A DNA stretch of 64,000 nucleotides, taken from Spartobacteria bacterium. Lineage in GTDB: Bacteria; Verrucomicrobiota; Verrucomicrobiia; Chthoniobacterales; UBA10450. Below, one piece after another: positions 4,921-54,391 of the stretch (within the stretch, counting starts at the first letter, position 1; every line of letters begins with the position of its first letter). A program made the position numbers and the translations under genes. Where the stretch lies: the NCBI GenBank assembly GCA_003134765.1, contig PLCM01000032.1, positions 62,001 through 126,000 on the forward strand, in the 5' to 3' direction. The notes under the pieces were generated by a model. That model was not told the DNA's origin, did not search any database, and worked only from the letters and a program-made list of their open reading frames with translations.

Positions 4921-4950
4921 CGATACAATTGTCATACAACCCACTGAGAC

Positions 4951-5042
4951 TGTCATCCCGAGCGTAGCGAAGCGAAGTCGAGGGACCCCGATGAGAGTCG
5001 ATCGACGCACTGCGGGATCCCTCGACTTCGCTCGGGATGACA
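4951..5042. repeat. TGTCATCCCGAG-family inverted repeat pair (copy 1)
   Basis: TGTCATCCCGAGC..GTCGAGGGA ... TCCCTCGACTTCGCTCGGGATGACA. Confidence 0.9.
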
Positions 5043-9645: not shown

Positions 9646-9736
9646 CGCCCGGAATAATGTGGGGCTGAATCGGCAAATGCAATCAGTCAGGTTTCTCGCC
9701 CGTGCGTGGTTCTCATCATCTCGTTTTGAGGAGAGA

Positions 9737-9773
9737 GTCGATCACGAGCCGGAGCCCGAGCACGATCACGAAT
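9737..9773. repeat. GATCACGAGCCGGAGCCCGAGCACGATCACGA repeat
   Basis: Second copy of the 5711-5752 type, also in a divergent promoter gap. Confidence 0.6.
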
Positions 9774-9866
9774 GAGAGGGGGCCGGCCTTTGGACAACGG
9801 GTGAGATTGTGCTTCCATAGGTTGAAGTTATTGAGGTATTTCCTTTACCTCTGGTTAGGAGGCCAA

Positions 9867-10988
9867 ATGAAATTCACTAAACTCACCACGGTCCTGGTGT
9901 TGGGCGCCCTTTTTCTGACAGGATGTCGGAAGAGCGCCACCACCGGTGCCTCGAACAAAATCCGTGTCGGCTACATCGGCTTGACCTGTGAAGCGCCGAT
10001 CTTCTGCGCGGTGGAGAACGGTTTCTTCAAGGAAGAGGGCCTCGACGTCGAAATGGTGAAATGCGAATGGGCCAACTACAAGGATGTTCTGGCCCTGGGC
10101 GGATTCGACATTACCCACCATCTCGTCATGTATTTTCTGAAGCCAATCGAACAGGGGCTCGATGTCCGTTTTACGGCGGGAATCCATAAGGGCTGTCTGC
10201 GGGTCCAGTCCTCGACGAAAGGAAATATCCATTCCGTGCAAGATCTCCGCGGAAAACGGATTGGCGTCCCGGGAATGGGGACACCTCCCTTTATTTTTGC
10301 CAATCGCGTTTTGGGCGCCAGCGGCATTGATGCAAGCAAGGACGTAAGCTGGCGCGTTTTTCCGGCGGGTGAGCTGGGACTCGCGCTCGACAAGGGTGAA
10401 GTTGACGCGGTCGCGGACTCCGAACCGATCGGCAGCCTTCTTCTCGCCGACGGCAAGGTCCGGAATGTCGCCGACCAGGCGCAGGACATGCCTTACAAAA
10501 ATGAATACTGCTGCGCCGTGATTGTGAACGGCAAGTATCTGGCGGCGCATCCGAAGGAGTCGGCGGCTGGGACCCGCGCGCTTCTCAAGGGAGCAAAGTG
10601 GGTGGAGGCCAATCCGGCGGCGGCGGCGCGGTTGTCCGTCGAGAAAAAGTATCTCGCTTCCAGTCCCGAACTGAACACGGTGGCGATTTCGCACCTGCGT
10701 TATGTGCCGAGCGTTTCCGGCGCGGATCAGGCAGTCCAATCCGCCGCCGAGGAAATGAAAATTGCGGGCATGCTCAGTCCGACCACTAATGTGGCCGACC
10801 TGGCGAAGCGCGCGTTTGTTCATCTCGATGGCGTTTCGGACGAGTGGCTCGAGAGTTTAAAGGTGGAAAAAGTGGCGGGCGGCCAGGTCCCGCCGGATCA
10901 GGACATCCGCCTTTACGCGGAACTGATTCTCGCTGATACCGAGGATTCATGTTGCAAAAAGAGACCGGTCCTGGCGGCGGAGAAGTAG
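9867..10988 (+). CDS. ABC transporter substrate-binding lipoprotein (NMT1/TauA/SsuA-like)
   Basis: Lipobox LFLTGC; IRVGYIGLTCEAPIFCAVENGFFKEEGLDVEMVK; DLRGKRIGVPGMG; internal ATG with upstream GGAGG. Confidence 0.88.
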   Translation: MKFTKLTTVLVLGALFLTGCRKSATTGASNKIRVGYIGLTCEAPIFCAVENGFFKEEGLDVEMVKCEWANYKDVLALGGFDITHHLVMYFLKPIEQGLDVRFTAGIHKGCLRVQSSTKGNIHSVQDLRGKRIGVPGMGTPPFIFANRVLGASGIDASKDVSWRVFPAGELGLALDKGEVDAVADSEPIGSLLLADGKVRNVADQAQDMPYKNEYCCAVIVNGKYLAAHPKESAAGTRALLKGAKWVEANPAAAARLSVEKKYLASSPELNTVAISHLRYVPSVSGADQAVQSAAEEMKIAGMLSPTTNVADLAKRAFVHLDGVSDEWLESLKVEKVAGGQVPPDQDIRLYAELILADTEDSCCKKRPVLAAEK

Positions 10989-11983
10989 ATCAGGCGTGGA
11001 CTGAAGGCGCGCCGCGCACGGCGCCGCCCGCGAGCATAACCGCATCGCTGCGGACATGGCTGCCGGTCACCGCGGCGACGGCGATCTGTCTTGGAATCCA
11101 CTGGTTTGTTTCAAGCACGGAGCTGCCCGCCGAGACGCGCTCTTACTTCGTGTTCCTCTGGAGCGTGCTTGGGGTCTCACTCGTTCTCGCGGGCGCGCAA
11201 ATCGGATGGCCGGCGCTGCGCCGATGGATGCGACAGATGGGGCCGATTTTTTCGGTGGCGCTTTTGACCCTGGGCCTCTGGGAGATGATCACTTCGGGTT
11301 TCCGGTGGCTGCCGCTCCCGTATTTCCCGAGCCCGGCCGGAGTTTTCCAAAGCTTGATCAACGATCGGGCGCTGCTTTTCGACAGCACCTGGCACTCGCT
11401 CATCCTGCTCCTGAGTGGCTACGCGCTTGGCGTCGTCGCCGGTTTGATCAGCGGCATCTGTATCGGGTGGTCGTCGCCGGTTCGTTATTGGGGAATGCCG
11501 ATCCTGAAAGTCGTTGGCCCGATTCCCGCGACGGCTTGGATTCCCCTCGCAATGGTCGTTTCCCCTTCCGCAATTTTTTCCGCCGCGGCCTTGATTGCGC
11601 TCGCCGTCTGGTTCCCCGTTACGATGCTGACCGCATCCGGCATTTCGAACACGCGTGCCTCGTATCTGGACGTCGCGCGCACTCTTGGCGCGGGCCGGCG
11701 TTTCCTGATTTTCCGGGTCGCCATTCCCGCCGCGCTGCCGAGCATCTTCATCGGTTTATTCATGGGTTTGGGCGCATCATTTCTGACCTTGGTCGTCGCT
11801 GAAACCGTCGGAGTGAAGTCAGGGCTCGGCTGGTATGTGAGCTGGGCGCAGGGCTGGGCCGAATACGGAAAGGTTTTCGCCGCGCTCGTCATCATGGCGG
11901 CGTTCTTCTCCACCATCATGACCCTCCTTTTCAAGGTGCGCGATCGCGTGTTGGTGTGGCAAAAGGGAGTAATCAAATGGTAA
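10949..11983 (+). CDS. ABC transporter permease (nitrate/sulfonate/taurine type)
   Basis: Multi-TM; SYLDVARTLGAGRRFLIFRVAIPAALPSIFIGLFMGLGASFLTLVVAE; overlaps neighbours. Confidence 0.9.
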   Translation: MLQKETGPGGGEVDQAWTEGAPRTAPPASITASLRTWLPVTAATAICLGIHWFVSSTELPAETRSYFVFLWSVLGVSLVLAGAQIGWPALRRWMRQMGPIFSVALLTLGLWEMITSGFRWLPLPYFPSPAGVFQSLINDRALLFDSTWHSLILLLSGYALGVVAGLISGICIGWSSPVRYWGMPILKVVGPIPATAWIPLAMVVSPSAIFSAAALIALAVWFPVTMLTASGISNTRASYLDVARTLGAGRRFLIFRVAIPAALPSIFIGLFMGLGASFLTLVVAETVGVKSGLGWYVSWAQGWAEYGKVFAALVIMAAFFSTIMTLLFKVRDRVLVWQKGVIKW

Positions 11984-12771
11984 CGCAAGAGGCGGTGGAA
12001 GCGTCGTCGCTTCGCGTTCGTGAAGTCAGCAAGAGCTTTCCTCTGCCCGACGAACCGACGACCCGCCGATTGGCCCTCGATAACGTTTCGCTTTCGCTCA
12101 CCGCCGGTGAGCTCGTTTCTCTCGTCGGCCCCAGCGGCTGCGGCAAATCCACCCTGCTGCGTCTCATCGCCGGTCTCGATTCGCCGGACTCCGGTGAACT
12201 GATGGTCGGCGCGGAATCGATCACCGGCCCGAACGCGGAGCGCGGCCTGGTCTTTCAGGATCCGAACCTGTTCCCGTGGCTGACGGTCCGGCGAAATATC
12301 GAAGCGGGTTTGGTGGCGCGGCATGTCTTGAAGGAGAAACGTCACGAAGTCGATGAGTTCATGCGGCTGGTCGGCCTGGAAAGTTTTGCGGGTGCGTATC
12401 CGCACCATCTCTCCGGCGGAATGGCGCAACGCGTCGCGCTCGCGCGGGCGCTGATTAATCATCCGAAAGTGTTGCTGCTCGACGAGCCGCTGGGAGCGCT
12501 CGATGCCTTCACCCGGATGCGGATGCAGGATGAAGTGCTCCGGCTCTGGCAGGCGCGCCGGACCACCATGCTGCTGGTGACGCACGACATCGACGAATCG
12601 ATTTACATGAGCGATCGCATCGTCATTATGACGCAACGGCCCGGGCGAATCGAACGAACAATTCCGGTGGCGCTGGAGCGACCGCGCGATCGCAGCAGCG
12701 CCGATTTTCTTCAACTCCGCGGAGAAATTCTGGAGCTCCTGCATTTCGCGGGCAACGCGGTTGCGATTTAG
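11977..12771 (+). CDS. ABC transporter ATP-binding protein (nitrate/sulfonate/taurine type)
   Basis: Walker A GPSGCGKST, HLSGGMAQRVALARAL, LLLDEPLGALDAFTR. Confidence 0.95.
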   Translation: MVTQEAVEASSLRVREVSKSFPLPDEPTTRRLALDNVSLSLTAGELVSLVGPSGCGKSTLLRLIAGLDSPDSGELMVGAESITGPNAERGLVFQDPNLFPWLTVRRNIEAGLVARHVLKEKRHEVDEFMRLVGLESFAGAYPHHLSGGMAQRVALARALINHPKVLLLDEPLGALDAFTRMRMQDEVLRLWQARRTTMLLVTHDIDESIYMSDRIVIMTQRPGRIERTIPVALERPRDRSSADFLQLRGEILELLHFAGNAVAI

Positions 12772-12928: not shown

Positions 12929-14608
12929 ATGGACGAAACGGCCGGAAAGCTAACTTCGGGTGAGCCGCTCAGCGTCGAGCAACTCCTCGAGTACTTGCCC
13001 GCGTTGAAGGAAGTCCCGGCCGTGCAGCTGGAGAAATACGCGAAAGGGGCGGCGGTGCTTCATCGCTACCGGAAAGGCGAAACCGTCTGCGTGGAAGGCG
13101 AGTTCGGCTCGACCGCCTATTACATCGTTTCGGGCACGGTCGAGATTTCGATTCAAAATCCGCTCGCCCACCTCCGCACCCGACCGGCGTCCGGATTTTT
13201 CGGCCGCAGCATGGCGCGGATGAAAAGCTTTTTGCTCGATGAAGAGCAGGACAAACGCGCCGAGGCGCACGACCGCAAGTTCATCGGGATCGACGCGAAC
13301 ATTGATCTTCCGATGAACAAACCGATCGCGGAGCTCGGGCCGGGAGAGCTGTTTGGCGAAATGACCTGCCGGACATTTCAACCCCGGTCTGCCACGGTGA
13401 TCGCGCGCGAGCCCTGCGAGATGGTCGAGATGCTGCGGGTGATCCTCGACATGCTGGTCGGGAACCGCCAGGTCTCGGAGGCCTCGAAGGCGACGTCGAA
13501 AGTGAAGGCGCCGACGTTCAAGGGCACCTCGTTCAAGACGCAAATGGACGAAAAATACCGGCAGCGCTCGCTCGAGACGCATCTCCGGAGCGTGCCGCTC
13601 TTCGCCAGCGTGGGCGAAGAATTCCTGCGTTACCTGAAGGAGAAGGTCGAGCTGGTTTCCTTCAACCAGAACGACGTCATCTGCAAGGAAGGAGAAGAGG
13701 CGGACGCATTTTATCTCATCCGTTCCGGAATGGTGCGCGTCTCGCAGACGATGCCGGGCGGCGATATGGTTCGGACGTATTTGAGTCGCGGCGATTTTTT
13801 TGGCGAGATTGGTTTGCTCCGGTCGATTAAGCGAATCGCGACCTGCAGCGCGCTGGACGCGGTGGACGTCGTGAAAATTCCCGGCGCCGAGTTCAATCTC
13901 ATGCTGGAAAAATTTCCCGGCGTCCGCGCGCAGCTCGAGCCGGTCGCGGATGCACGCATGACCGCGACGATGAGCCGGCAAATCCCGCCCGGGCTGGGGC
14001 TGGACGATTATCTCAACCAGGGATTGTTCGAAGCGCAGAACCTGTTGCTGATCGATCTGGATAATTGCACGCGTTGCGACGCCTGCGTGCAGGCCTGCGC
14101 CAAAGCGCACGACGGCATCTCCCGCCTGCTGCGCGACGGTTTGCGCTACGATCACTTCCTCGTCGCGACGGCCTGCCGTTCCTGCCGCGATCCGCTTTGC
14201 ATGACGCAATGTCCGGTCGGCTCGATCCGACGGAAGGAGAACCTCGAGATCATCATTGAAGATTGGTGCATCGGCTGCGGGAAATGCGCCGAGCTTTGTC
14301 CCTACGGCAACATCAACATGCACCCGCTCGAAGTGACCAAAGAAGTGAAGACGGAGGTCAAATCGCCGAATCCGAACATTCCGCCCACGGTAAAAATCGA
14401 GAAGAAAAAGACGACGACCTACAAAGCGAACACCTGCGATCTCTGCACGCAGTTATCGGTCCCGAGCTGCGTTTATGCCTGCCCGCACGATGCCGCGAAA
14501 CGGGTCGATCCGCAGCGCTTTTTCGGCGATGCCCTCGAATTGCAGAACCGCCTGTTCAACGATGAATGGACTCCGGCGCGCCGTTATCAAATGCACCATA
14601 CCCACTGA
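12929..14608 (+). CDS. Tandem cyclic-nucleotide-binding domains fused to a four-cluster 4Fe-4S ferredoxin domain (HybA/NrfC-like)
   Basis: cNMP-like FGEMTCRTFQPRSATV and FFGEIGLLRSIKRIATCSAL; four Cys quartets CTRCDACVQAC, CRSCRDPLCMTQC, CIGCGKCAELC, CDLCTQLSVPSCVYAC; start at MDETAGKL. Confidence 0.9.
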   Translation: MDETAGKLTSGEPLSVEQLLEYLPALKEVPAVQLEKYAKGAAVLHRYRKGETVCVEGEFGSTAYYIVSGTVEISIQNPLAHLRTRPASGFFGRSMARMKSFLLDEEQDKRAEAHDRKFIGIDANIDLPMNKPIAELGPGELFGEMTCRTFQPRSATVIAREPCEMVEMLRVILDMLVGNRQVSEASKATSKVKAPTFKGTSFKTQMDEKYRQRSLETHLRSVPLFASVGEEFLRYLKEKVELVSFNQNDVICKEGEEADAFYLIRSGMVRVSQTMPGGDMVRTYLSRGDFFGEIGLLRSIKRIATCSALDAVDVVKIPGAEFNLMLEKFPGVRAQLEPVADARMTATMSRQIPPGLGLDDYLNQGLFEAQNLLLIDLDNCTRCDACVQACAKAHDGISRLLRDGLRYDHFLVATACRSCRDPLCMTQCPVGSIRRKENLEIIIEDWCIGCGKCAELCPYGNINMHPLEVTKEVKTEVKSPNPNIPPTVKIEKKKTTTYKANTCDLCTQLSVPSCVYACPHDAAKRVDPQRFFGDALELQNRLFNDEWTPARRYQMHHTH

Positions 14609-14621
14609 TGAGCACTCATTC

Positions 14622-14736
14622 TGTCATCCTGAGCGGAGCGAAAGCGGAGTCGAAGGATCCCGGTGTGCAACGTGCGGCGCCGCCGCCGGTTCTTCCGCGG
14701 GGTCCCTCGACTCCGCTTCGCTCCGCTCGGGATGAC
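14622..14736. repeat. TGTCATCC(T)GAG-family inverted repeat pair (copy 2)
   Basis: TGTCATCCTGAGCGGAGCG..GTCGAAGGAT ... GTCCCTCGACTCCGCTTCGCTCCGCTCGGGATGAC. Confidence 0.88.
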
Positions 14737-14747
14737 GTGTTTGCAAG

Positions 14748-16142
14748 ATGAGGATCAACAACTGGAAACACTTTCCCTGGCTCGTCTTCGTTTGCCTCGC
14801 CACGATTGCGGCCTGCATTCTTTACGCCGGTAATTTTCATCCGGACGCGCTCCCATCGTGGATTCATTTGCCGGCGTCATTGGTCCAAACGCCGACCGAG
14901 CACCACACCGTCGGCGGCACGCCGCTTGGTCTGGCTTTTGGCGCGATCTCTTTGGCGATCTTTGTTTTCGCCGCCTTGCTGAGTTTGCGAAAAAAAATTC
15001 CGCTCTGGCGCGTCGGGACCGTGCAGCGGTGGTTGCGCGCCCATATCTGGCTCACGCTCCTCACGATTCCGCTCGTCATTTTGCACAGCGGGTTCCGGTT
15101 GGGCGGGCCGATGACCACATTCCTGATGGCGCTCTATGGGATCGTAATGGTGAGCGGAATTTACGGACTCTTTCTCCAGCATTTGATGCCGCGCCTGATG
15201 AAGGAGCGATTGCCGGCTGAGACGGTCTTCGAGCAAATCCCCCATATCCGCTCGCAACTCGCCGCCGCCGCCGAGAAAATGCGCGATTCATTCAAACCGG
15301 CGCCGCCGAAAAAACCCGGCGCCGGTGCGCCCGCGCCGAGCGGGGCGAAAGCAGCGACGGCTGGTGCGGCGGTAATGGCGTCAACGAAAGGGGAGTTGAG
15401 CACTCCGGTCGCGCGCGCAAAATCGGTAACCGGATCGGCTATTACCGCCGCACCCGTCGCAGCGGCGGCCACGAGCGCGTCGGCAGGCCCGGCCGCGAAA
15501 ACAATGGAATCGGAGGCGGAGCCCGCGCCGGCATCGATTCCGAATGCCGCCGTTAAACCGGCGGCACCGAAGGCGGAGACGATTGGCACGCCGACGGCGC
15601 GCGTGCAGAGCGACCCGCCCGGCGAACCCGTGGCGCGAACGGACGTTCCGGCCGGCGATCAGGCGGCGCCTTCTCCGCCAGTGGCTCCCGCCGCGCCGCC
15701 GCCGGCGGAAAAACCCGCGACAACGTCACCGCCGCCTGCTCCGGCCGCGAAGCCCGCGGCGCCGGCAGCCGCGCCAAGACCTGCCGCCTCCGCTGCGGCG
15801 AAACCGGCGGCGCCCGCCGACCCCGCTTCGGAAGCGGTGCTCGTCGAATTTATCGAGCGCCAGATTCTTCCTTATCTGCAGGCGCGTCGCGGCGATCGGA
15901 TGCGACTGAACAATCCCCGTTTTTCCGATGACACTTTTCGCTTTGTGAAACTGCGCGTGGCCGAAGTCTACCGGAGCCGCGTCGAAGAAATCCAGGGCTG
16001 GTGCGATGAGCGCCGCATGCTCGACCTTCAGGTGCGTCTGCAACATTGGCTGCATGGGTGGCTTTTCGTGCATGTGCCGTTTTCATTTTTGCTTTTGATG
16101 CTCACGATCTGGCACGCCAGCGTGACGCTTTTTTACTATTAA
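14748..16142 (+). CDS. Integral membrane protein, putative diheme b-type cytochrome with long Ala/Pro-rich insert
   Basis: Helix AHIWLTLLTIPLVILHSG (H-X13-H) and C-terminal FVHVPFSFLLLMLTIWHAS (H-X13-H); about 200 aa Ala/Pro-rich segment between. Confidence 0.8.
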   Translation: MRINNWKHFPWLVFVCLATIAACILYAGNFHPDALPSWIHLPASLVQTPTEHHTVGGTPLGLAFGAISLAIFVFAALLSLRKKIPLWRVGTVQRWLRAHIWLTLLTIPLVILHSGFRLGGPMTTFLMALYGIVMVSGIYGLFLQHLMPRLMKERLPAETVFEQIPHIRSQLAAAAEKMRDSFKPAPPKKPGAGAPAPSGAKAATAGAAVMASTKGELSTPVARAKSVTGSAITAAPVAAAATSASAGPAAKTMESEAEPAPASIPNAAVKPAAPKAETIGTPTARVQSDPPGEPVARTDVPAGDQAAPSPPVAPAAPPPAEKPATTSPPPAPAAKPAAPAAAPRPAASAAAKPAAPADPASEAVLVEFIERQILPYLQARRGDRMRLNNPRFSDDTFRFVKLRVAEVYRSRVEEIQGWCDERRMLDLQVRLQHWLHGWLFVHVPFSFLLLMLTIWHASVTLFYY

Positions 16143-16167
16143 TATGGTTGCCCTTGAGATTCATCGA

Positions 16168-16226
16168 TGGAGGGGCGAGCTCCCGCGAGCCCGTCGCGCC
16201 CGGGCCTCGCAGAGCTCAGCCCTCCA
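16168..16226. repeat. Palindromic element TGGAGGGGCGAGCTC...GAGCTCAGCCCTCCA
   Basis: Inverted arms around a GC-rich centre, intergenic. Confidence 0.75.
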
Positions 16227-16242
16227 AATCTAGACGCCCATC

Positions 16243-17748
16243 ATGGCCACGCCGGGACGAACCCAAAAACAGATCGCCGAGCGTTACAAAGGCAATCTCG
16301 GCTATTACAAAAAGAAGCATCCGTGGCGAGTGGCCCGGTTTGTCACCAGCTTCCTCGCACTCGCCGGCGGCATCGCGGGCATCATCGTTTACCAGAAGCT
16401 GATTTTTCAACGGCAGGTGAGCGAGGAATTTTTCAGTTCGGGAAAAATTTCCAGCCAACACGCGAAGTACGAGCAGGACTGCGCCCAGTGCCATGACAAG
16501 AATGCTGCGATGGGCAGCGACCTGACCCTGGCGAAATTCCACGGGGTCATCAGAGATCGGTTTCATCGCGGAATCGATTTCAGCTCGATCGATCACAAAT
16601 GTCAGGAGTGCCACGAAAAGAACCCGCCCTTTGGCACCGCGAAAAAATACGACCTGCACGAACCGAACGTGGTCGACAATCGGTCCTGCTCGATCTGCCA
16701 TCAGGAACATCTCGGGCCCGGGCCCATGAAACCGGTGGCCGATCTGCAATGCGCCTCGTGCCACAACGACCGAGGGATCATGGAAGCGTCCGCGAAGAAG
16801 GGGGCGACGTTACCGGCGGACGTTTTTCACCTTCGGGCGCATCCGCCCCAGCAAATTGTCTTCGAAATGCCGCGGCCGGCGCGTGGTTACACGCAGGTTT
16901 TTCGCTCGTTTGCCGATGAGCATCCCGAATTCCAGCTCATCCAGCAAAAGGCGCGCGATCCCGATGTGCTTCGCTTCAATCACCAGCGCCATTTCGCCAA
17001 CGACATTCCGCCGGTGAACGGGCAGAAGCTCGATTGCAATTACTGCCATAAGCCGGAGCCGGGCGGCCGCTTTTACCAGCGCGTTAGTTTTGCCGCAAAC
17101 TGCCAGGCGTGCCACGCCCTCCAGTTCGACAAGAATAATCCGCAGCTTCATCTCCCGCATGGCGACGTGAACCTGGTGCGGACTTTCCTGCGGACGCTGC
17201 CGGCGCAATACGCGACGTTCGCGCGTCTCCAGGACGCAAAGACGGCGCGTAACGGCGATGTGAGAACGTTCGTGGCGCAGCAAATGAATCAACTGCGCGC
17301 CCAGTTTGGGAGCGACGACGAAGTGGAGCGGGCGGTGTTTTTCGAAACCGATCCCTACAAACCGCAGCGGCAGGCGCCGGCGTTGCACCGCGCGAACTTT
17401 GCCGGCTGCGCGTTTTGCCACGAGGTAAAAACGGTGAAGGGCGGCCCGGTTGTGACTCCACCCGTTCTGGTCGACCGCTGGATGCCGCAGGCCCACTTCA
17501 ATCACGTGAAGCACGCGAGCGTAAAGTGTGACGATTGTCATCACGCCAGCCAGAGCCGCGAGACCGCCGAGGTGTTGATGCCGGCCAAAGCCAACTGCGT
17601 GACCTGCCACAGCCCGAAGGGCAGAGTCGTGAGCGAATGCATCACCTGCCACACGTATCACGCCCCTGGTCAGGTGGTGACGGTTGAGATGCACGCGGAT
17701 GCGAGCCCCTCGTTCAAACAGATGCTGCTAGGCGGCAATGAAAGATAG
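16243..17748 (+). CDS. Membrane-anchored decaheme c-type cytochrome
   Basis: Ten CXXCH motifs (CAQCH, CQECH, CSICH, CASCH, CNYCH, CQACH, CAFCH, CDDCH, CVTCH, CITCH); N-terminal TM helix. Confidence 0.95.
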   Translation: MATPGRTQKQIAERYKGNLGYYKKKHPWRVARFVTSFLALAGGIAGIIVYQKLIFQRQVSEEFFSSGKISSQHAKYEQDCAQCHDKNAAMGSDLTLAKFHGVIRDRFHRGIDFSSIDHKCQECHEKNPPFGTAKKYDLHEPNVVDNRSCSICHQEHLGPGPMKPVADLQCASCHNDRGIMEASAKKGATLPADVFHLRAHPPQQIVFEMPRPARGYTQVFRSFADEHPEFQLIQQKARDPDVLRFNHQRHFANDIPPVNGQKLDCNYCHKPEPGGRFYQRVSFAANCQACHALQFDKNNPQLHLPHGDVNLVRTFLRTLPAQYATFARLQDAKTARNGDVRTFVAQQMNQLRAQFGSDDEVERAVFFETDPYKPQRQAPALHRANFAGCAFCHEVKTVKGGPVVTPPVLVDRWMPQAHFNHVKHASVKCDDCHHASQSRETAEVLMPAKANCVTCHSPKGRVVSECITCHTYHAPGQVVTVEMHADASPSFKQMLLGGNER

Positions 17749-33910: not shown

Positions 33911-33991
33911 TGTCATCCCGAGCGAAGTCGAGGGACCCCGCGAAACGTCGCTCGACTCACCACGGGATCCCTCGACTTCGCTCGGGATGAC
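33911..33991. repeat. TGTCATCCCGAG-family inverted repeat pair (copy 5)
   Basis: TGTCATCCCGAGCGAAGTCGAGGGACC ... GGATCCCTCGACTTCGCTCGGGATGAC. Confidence 0.92.
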
Positions 33992-54272: not shown

Positions 54273-54278
54273 CTTTTC

Positions 54279-54391
54279 GTCATTCCGAACGGAGCGCAGC
54301 GGAGTCGAGGAATACCGCTGCGGCACCTTCAAGGTTTGATCACGGGATCCCTCGACTCCGTTTCGTTCCACTGCACTTCGCTCGGGATGAC
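54279..54391. repeat. GTCATTCCGAA/CCCGAG-family inverted repeat pair (copy 7)
   Basis: GTCATTCCGAACGGAGCGCAGCGGAGTCGAGGAATACC ... GGATCCCTCGACTCCG..CTTCGCTCGGGATGAC. Confidence 0.85.

Follow-up and report, generated by a model that had tools for sequence, protein, structure and literature searches.

A cyclic-nucleotide-domain ferredoxin, a paired-histidine membrane protein and a decaheme cytochrome in a Spartobacteria genome: probable inner-membrane half of a PCC4-type electron conduit

Subgroup II of the PCC4 systems is known from bioinformatic prediction only (He et al. 2017, Front Microbiol 8:1584, PMC5566968). Its clusters join a porin to three multiheme cytochromes (MHCs; 4, 5 and 10 hemes) and also hold genes for a five-helix protein, for an Fe-S protein and for further redox proteins. 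The five-helix protein displays an SGXXG element on transmembrane helix 4 (TM4) and two WX3HX13H motifs on TM3 and TM5; its histidine pairs were likened to the ferric-reductase domain (FRD), and two b hemes were inferred (PMC5566968). The terms 'cyclic nucleotide' and 'cAMP' are absent from the main text of that paper. In this paper we analyse a stretch of 64,000 nucleotides from a Spartobacteria bacterium (GenBank assembly GCA_003134765.1, contig PLCM01000032.1, positions 62,001 to 126,000), hereafter the window, which harbours a trio of related genes: FER, for a ferredoxin with tandem cyclic-nucleotide-binding domains (cNBDs), MEM, for a membrane protein with paired histidines, and DEC, for a decaheme cytochrome c. 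They are consecutive on the plus strand in this order, as an earlier, sequence-only reading of the DNA had described. The same reading knew of no named system with exactly this composition; this has to be corrected, since PCC4 subgroup II, named and predicted, has the same core (PMC5566968).

The likeness to PCC4 subgroup II reaches into details: the window MEM has five helices, the SGXXG element (SGIYG, residues 136-140) and both WX3HX13H motifs, FER lies directly upstream of MEM, a decaheme cytochrome belongs to the cluster, and the window FER and MEM are homologous to those in clusters of exactly PCC4 composition. By contrast, the window locus possesses no gene for a porin, for a four-heme (c4) or five-heme (c5) cytochrome or for the flavin reductase (FNR, an FAD/NAD(P)H/2Fe-2S reductase); its FER forms a separate deep lineage in which both cNBD ligand sites, and not just one, are intact; its MEM contains a long linker; and its DEC lacks the Cys-rich N-terminus seen in Opitutaceae-type DEC. 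With porin, c4 and c5 missing, the window trio was rejected as a canonical PCC4. In many sampled loci the trio is the core of PCC4 subgroup II, and the kind of system had thus already been predicted.

Three further groups invite comparison. Porin-multiheme cytochrome clusters have been described in Verrucomicrobia, with Opitutus and 'Ca. Udaeobacter' among the carriers (He et al. 2017, mSphere, PMC5615132); as in our material, where host-related genomes carry porin-MHC pairs, the porin there adjoins multiheme cytochromes, but transfer across the inner membrane is left unspecified and the periplasmic cytochromes have eight hemes. The FRD proteins (ferric reductase, NADPH oxidase, STEAP) and DUF4405 resemble MEM in having H-X13-H pairs, two in all, on the third and fifth helix and in weak profile matches of some MEM relatives (none of the window MEM); unlike FRD proteins, MEM has neither a significant fold match nor a fused flavin domain, the reductase being a separate gene that is absent from the window. 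Finally, the regulatory subunit of PKA (PKA-R) and PKG share with FER the tandem CNB fold and a Glu-Arg cassette, while the output of FER is a four-cluster ferredoxin rather than a kinase and its first cNBD (cNBD1) carries an insertion. A literature search that covered few subscription papers and no supplements found no functional study of cNBD-ferredoxins that are combined with multiheme cytochromes. What is new here is that the Fe-S subunit has a conserved PKA-like ligand site and that lineages with one intact site are split from lineages with two.

Spread of the trio and its lineages

Synteny in relatives, proposed by the sequence-only reading as a test, is extensive. In a wide scan of a species-representative collection, FER and MEM are adjacent in 79 of the best 80 loci (from at least 513 relatives) and the full order FER-MEM-DEC occurs in 72 of them, most of the others being cut by contig ends. 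The 80 loci carry labels from many phyla (Alphaproteobacteria, Gammaproteobacteria, Mariprofundus, Nitrospinota, Planctomycetota, SAR324, Poribacteria, Omnitrophota, Verrucomicrobiota and others); the labels of some metagenome-assembled genomes in the scan look doubtful. Within the phylum, FER matches at 1e-30 are present in 13 of 289 genomes, and MEM adjoins FER in 11 of 12 relatives outside the host, mostly together with DEC. In the genus and family of the host the trio is intact in every carrier with enough flank, with varying surrounding genes. Carriers available in culture include Hwanghaeella grinnelliae and Kordiimonadales IMCC3096. The trio is a real module, not a coincidence. As a separate observation, near-identical FER genes occur under different labels (L022 and L028, Kiritimatiellae and Gammaproteobacteria; L066, L067 and L071, Minwuia and Kordiimonadales), which means that some labels are wrong or transfer was recent.

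Most of the other loci combine a tetraheme c554-like cytochrome, FER, MEM, the decaheme DEC, a pentaheme cytochrome that is weakly ExtKL-like, a barrel-like protein without Pfam match, and FNR, which sits upstream or downstream in most non-window clusters. In a tree of 99 FER proteins (quick method, midpoint root, long inner branches) the window clade groups with FER domains fused to NuoG-type sequences (L017, L141 and L142; support 100), apart from 86 PCC4-type proteins. The window clade is a deep, separate variant of the predicted PCC4-type kind. The sequence-only reading had seen no terminal reductase nearby and called the partner unknown; relatives reveal part of the partners, with FNR or NuoEF/NuoG-type modules beside FER and porin-MHC pairs beside the trio or elsewhere in the genome.

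In the NuoG-fused relatives the cNBD-4x[4Fe-4S] domain is joined to a NuoG-type N-terminus (L017:9706-14275, L141:13253-17842, L142:10217-14802), and these NuoG-cNBD-Fer4 genes adjoin a NuoE-NuoF fusion; such an NADH dehydrogenase module, with a cyclic-nucleotide domain in it, is unusual. A NuoEF donor of the kind found in G325, a genome of the host family, was also sought in the host and rejected, as the sole match lies in an ordinary complex I operon.

The outer-membrane half is visible in several relatives, where 'porin' denotes a predicted barrel judged by gene place, absence of helices and a terminal aromatic residue. In three Opitutaceae-type loci (L018, L025, L026) a single cluster contains FER-MEM-DEC together with a barrel-like protein and a cytochrome of ~1300 aa, which has LVIVD repeats and ten CXXCH motifs; FNR lies upstream in L018. 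In G325, MEM-DEC (MEM 65% identity over its first 210 residues, DEC 54%) lies between a porin-MHC pair and the NuoEF fusion with its NuoG-cNBD-Fer4 partner; identity with the L018 counterparts is 51% for the porin and 64% for the MHC. A search with the G325 porin in eleven genomes, all FER carriers and so no correlation test, gave matches in ten, namely five congeners, G013, G167, G325, G328 and G085, the host draft being the only one without it. Of the FER carriers in the host family other than the host itself, nine of nine tested encode the porin, for the most part unlinked to the trio. At six further porin loci a ~1300-aa cytochrome with ten CXXCH adjoins the porin each time and is 77-79% identical to the G325 MHC. 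In the congeners the trio and the porin-MHC pair occupy separate loci.

Ligand sites, iron-sulfur clusters and hemes

The sequence-only reading of FER as two cNBDs and four Cys quartets agrees with Pfam, which reports cNMP_binding (PF00027, 6e-36) in three stretches and several Fer4 domains; neither a membrane segment nor a helix-turn-helix was detected. Residues were counted in 104 homologues (16 of the window and NuoG-fused lineages, 88 of the PCC4 lineage). The 16 cysteines of the four [4Fe-4S] quartets are kept in 102 to 104 of them, and the closest solved relatives of this domain are four-cluster subunits of the HycB type. That the cNBDs might lack ligand-binding residues had been named as a possible refutation, and the Glu/Arg pairs are present: in cNBD1, Glu144 is kept in 104/104 and Arg153 in 102/104 sequences from many phyla. 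Their spacing of nine residues is that of PKA and PKG, and in a profile search the cassette lines up with the one in PKG. The corresponding pair of cNBD2, Glu293 and Arg302, occurs in 16/16 sequences of the window and NuoG-fused lineages and in 0/88 of the PCC4 lineage, so that PCC4-type FER seems to have one competent-looking ligand site and window-type FER two. The residue after Arg153 is Ser, which would fit either ligand, cAMP on the pattern of CRP or cGMP on that of PKG, where Thr takes this place. The fold is a prediction: an AlphaFold model (mean pLDDT 70) retrieves with Foldseek the tandem CNB domains of PKA-R and PKG (best E 7e-17), and the ~50-residue insertion in cNBD1 (residues 78-129) is modelled with low confidence.

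A dedicated cyclase in the operon was considered and rejected, since a cyclase adjoins MEM-DEC only in L141 among about 100 loci, and there is no conserved link. There (L141:6932-11773, from G325) the stretch after MEM-DEC encodes, with the same orientation, a class III cyclase-TPR protein; orthologue-like proteins of the host are encoded on its contigs C34 and C1, unlinked to the trio. Other FER loci show peculiarities of their own. L020 has a reductase with an inserted FHA domain (L020:9641-13506) and, judged by eye, a FER with an FHA-like N-terminal extension, which suggests a phosphorylation input in addition to the cNBDs. A partial second FER copy with the N-terminal cNBD1 part only (L140, G309:C18:77318-77776) and a split FER (L137, G332:C106) are perhaps pseudogenes or assembly effects.

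The window MEM has no match of its own in Pfam or NCBIfam. Its five hydrophobic helices include the two exact H-X13-H pairs, HIWLTLLTIPLVILH (H99-H113) and HVPFSFLLLMLTIWH (H442-H456), that the sequence-only reading had reported, and none of the residues W95/H99/H113 and W438/H442/H456 varies among 51 aligned sequences. Both WX3HX13H motifs are present in 94 of 101 MEM homologues (the remainder being mostly truncated or fused frames) vs 0 of 2020 shuffled sequences. By the positive-inside rule, H99 and H442 would face the cytoplasmic side of the membrane, H113 and H456 the periplasmic side. Among the 51 relatives, 23 match DUF4405 weakly (best 3e-6) and 6 match Ferric_reduct (best 0.0015), with E values of up to 1 admitted. 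MEM counts as a candidate rather than a proven member of the ferric-reductase-domain family, the fold search being not significant.

DEC possesses exactly ten CXXCH motifs and one N-terminal hydrophobic helix, in keeping with the membrane-anchored cytochrome described from the sequence; its positively charged N-terminus followed by one helix places the hemes, by prediction, in the periplasm. In some relatives (L018:4051-5763, L020:6501-8819, L067:12492-14513) a Cys-rich region, predicted to be cytoplasmic, precedes the membrane helix, and this is possibly a metal-binding dock for FER.

Electron path, gating and rival explanations

The electron path from cytoplasm through membrane to periplasm that had been suggested from the sequence is kept as the best reading, given the synteny, the invariant histidines and the weak matches to di-heme b families. 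On the whole, we consider it probable that FER, MEM and DEC make up the inner-membrane half of a conduit across the envelope, a PCC4-type variant with outward flow that is fed by NAD(P)H or ferredoxin and for which gating by cyclic nucleotides is proposed. Either NAD(P)H or reduced ferredoxin would deliver electrons to FER in the cytoplasm (in relatives, NAD(P)H via FNR or NuoEF-type modules). After its four [4Fe-4S] clusters the electrons would reach a stack of two b hemes in MEM and then the ten hemes of DEC, and they would leave for a porin-MHC pair of the outer membrane, encoded elsewhere in the genome, or for a periplasmic acceptor, a path that would work without quinones. The occurrence of NAD(P)H-oxidising modules next to FER in relatives points to NAD(P)H as the electron source and to flow out of the cell, and this direction is favoured because the potential of NAD(P)H is low and the membrane potential acts in the same direction. 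With cAMP or cGMP bound to its tandem cNBDs, FER could shift its ferredoxin domain relative to MEM or the donor and so gate the flow. In its general form, the proposal that cyclic nucleotides gate the export of NAD(P)H electrons directly and post-translationally in many phyla, bypassing the quinone pool, with FER as a PKA-R-like allosteric switch, is a tentative one. If the cNBDs do bind cyclic nucleotides, this would be a widespread instance of direct action of a second messenger on an electron-transfer chain and not on transcription; PCC4-type conduits would gain, in the cytoplasm, a quinone-free donor route from NAD(P)H via Fe-S to heme b, and the feeding of many uncharacterised porin-cytochrome systems would become testable via one soluble protein.

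Several points weigh against this account. The fold search with MEM returns STEAP2, SpNOX and STEAP1, all with E above 2 and thus not significant. In the host draft genome (4.05 Mb, 41 contigs, 94% complete) searches for FNR, porin and c4 were empty while positive controls worked, and those for c5 and a large MHC were empty with no positive control; among these five, the draft thus offers no candidate for donor or outer acceptor. A cyclase adjoins the module in one locus only, and He et al. 2017 (PMC5566968) propose the opposite direction for PCC4, towards the quinone pool. In such an inward flow an extracellular donor, e.g. Fe(II), would feed electrons through porin-MHC, DEC and MEM into the quinone pool, with FER as a side branch to NAD+. 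FER and an NAD(P)H reductase lie beside MEM in most clusters, which suits a cytoplasmic and not a quinone partner, and transfer from periplasm to cytoplasm would run against the potential of NAD(P)H as well as that of the membrane; the window-clade locus, moreover, lacks the porin. Thus, although b-type membrane cytochromes often react with quinones and PCC4 is present in some iron oxidisers, we regard inward flow as unlikely.

The path could also be as described, with cNBDs that are structural, serve docking or bind another ligand, and no second-messenger gating. CRP-fold domains are known to switch ligand, and the loss of the cNBD2 pair throughout the PCC4 lineage indicates that this domain manages there without cyclic nucleotide; the single linked cyclase points the same way. 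The near-universal Glu and Arg of cNBD1 at PKA/PKG spacing, and the retention of both pairs in the window lineage, speak for ligand binding, and we hold the ungated alternative to be a serious possibility, if short of an even chance. A porin-less inner-membrane reductase, in which the window-clade trio works alone on a soluble periplasmic acceptor (another cytochrome, a peroxidase or a detoxifying reductase) outside extracellular electron transfer, would account for the want of porin, c4 and c5 in locus and host draft, and porin-less pairs of an MHC and an HX13H membrane protein have been described and deemed unlikely to serve extracellular transfer (He et al. 2017, PMC5566968). Yet every tested congener has an unlinked porin-MHC pair, the same parts form one operon in Opitutaceae-type genomes, and the absence of porin-MHC from the host may be an assembly gap: its 10-kb contig C19 matches a congener stretch ~16-27 kb from the porin locus and then ends. 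A trio acting alone seems to us rather unlikely.

Gene layout and neighbouring elements

The features of the locus are collected below. The longest frame of FER starts with TTG at 12761, and the alignment of homologues begins at the ATG given for the gene.

Features of the FER-MEM-DEC locus (positions in the window)
Feature	Position	Strand	Description and basis
FER gene	12929..14608	+	559 aa; tandem cNBDs and four-quartet ferredoxin domain; predicted cytoplasmic
cNBD1 phosphate-binding cassette FGEMTCRTFQPRSAT, E144 and R153	13352..13396	+	residue counts; aligned with PKG cassette
cNBD2 phosphate-binding cassette FGEIGLLRSIKRIAT, E293 and R302	13799..13843	+	residue counts by lineage
FER ferredoxin domain, residues 372-530, 16 Cys in four quartets	14042..14518	+	Pfam, residue counts
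MEM gene	14748..16142	+	464 aa; five-helix membrane protein; predicted two b hemes
First WX3HX13H motif, W95-H99-H113, helix 3	15030..15086	+	invariant in 51 sequences
MEM Ala/Pro-rich linker, residues 182-358	15291..15821	+	window-clade-specific; mostly disordered in model
Second WX3HX13H motif, W438-H442-H456, helix 5	16059..16115	+	invariant in 51 sequences
DEC gene	16243..17748	+	501 aa; membrane-anchored decaheme cytochrome c, predicted periplasmic; ten CXXCH

The host possesses genes for cytochrome c assembly and four matches to the class III cyclase family, both of which count in favour of the proposed account. The ABC-transporter genes upstream of the trio (9702-12771) were considered as part of the system and rejected: they are common to the congeners only, not to G013 or G167, and are mere neighbours. 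The gap between FER and MEM is filled by a palindromic repeat of ~115 bp (14623-14736), related copies of which occur at 4942-4993, 33921-33945 and 54278-54372 and elsewhere in the genome. It looks like an element of the MITE (miniature inverted-repeat transposable element) or REP (repetitive extragenic palindromic) type that was inserted into the operon, and it could form a hairpin between the FER and MEM genes.

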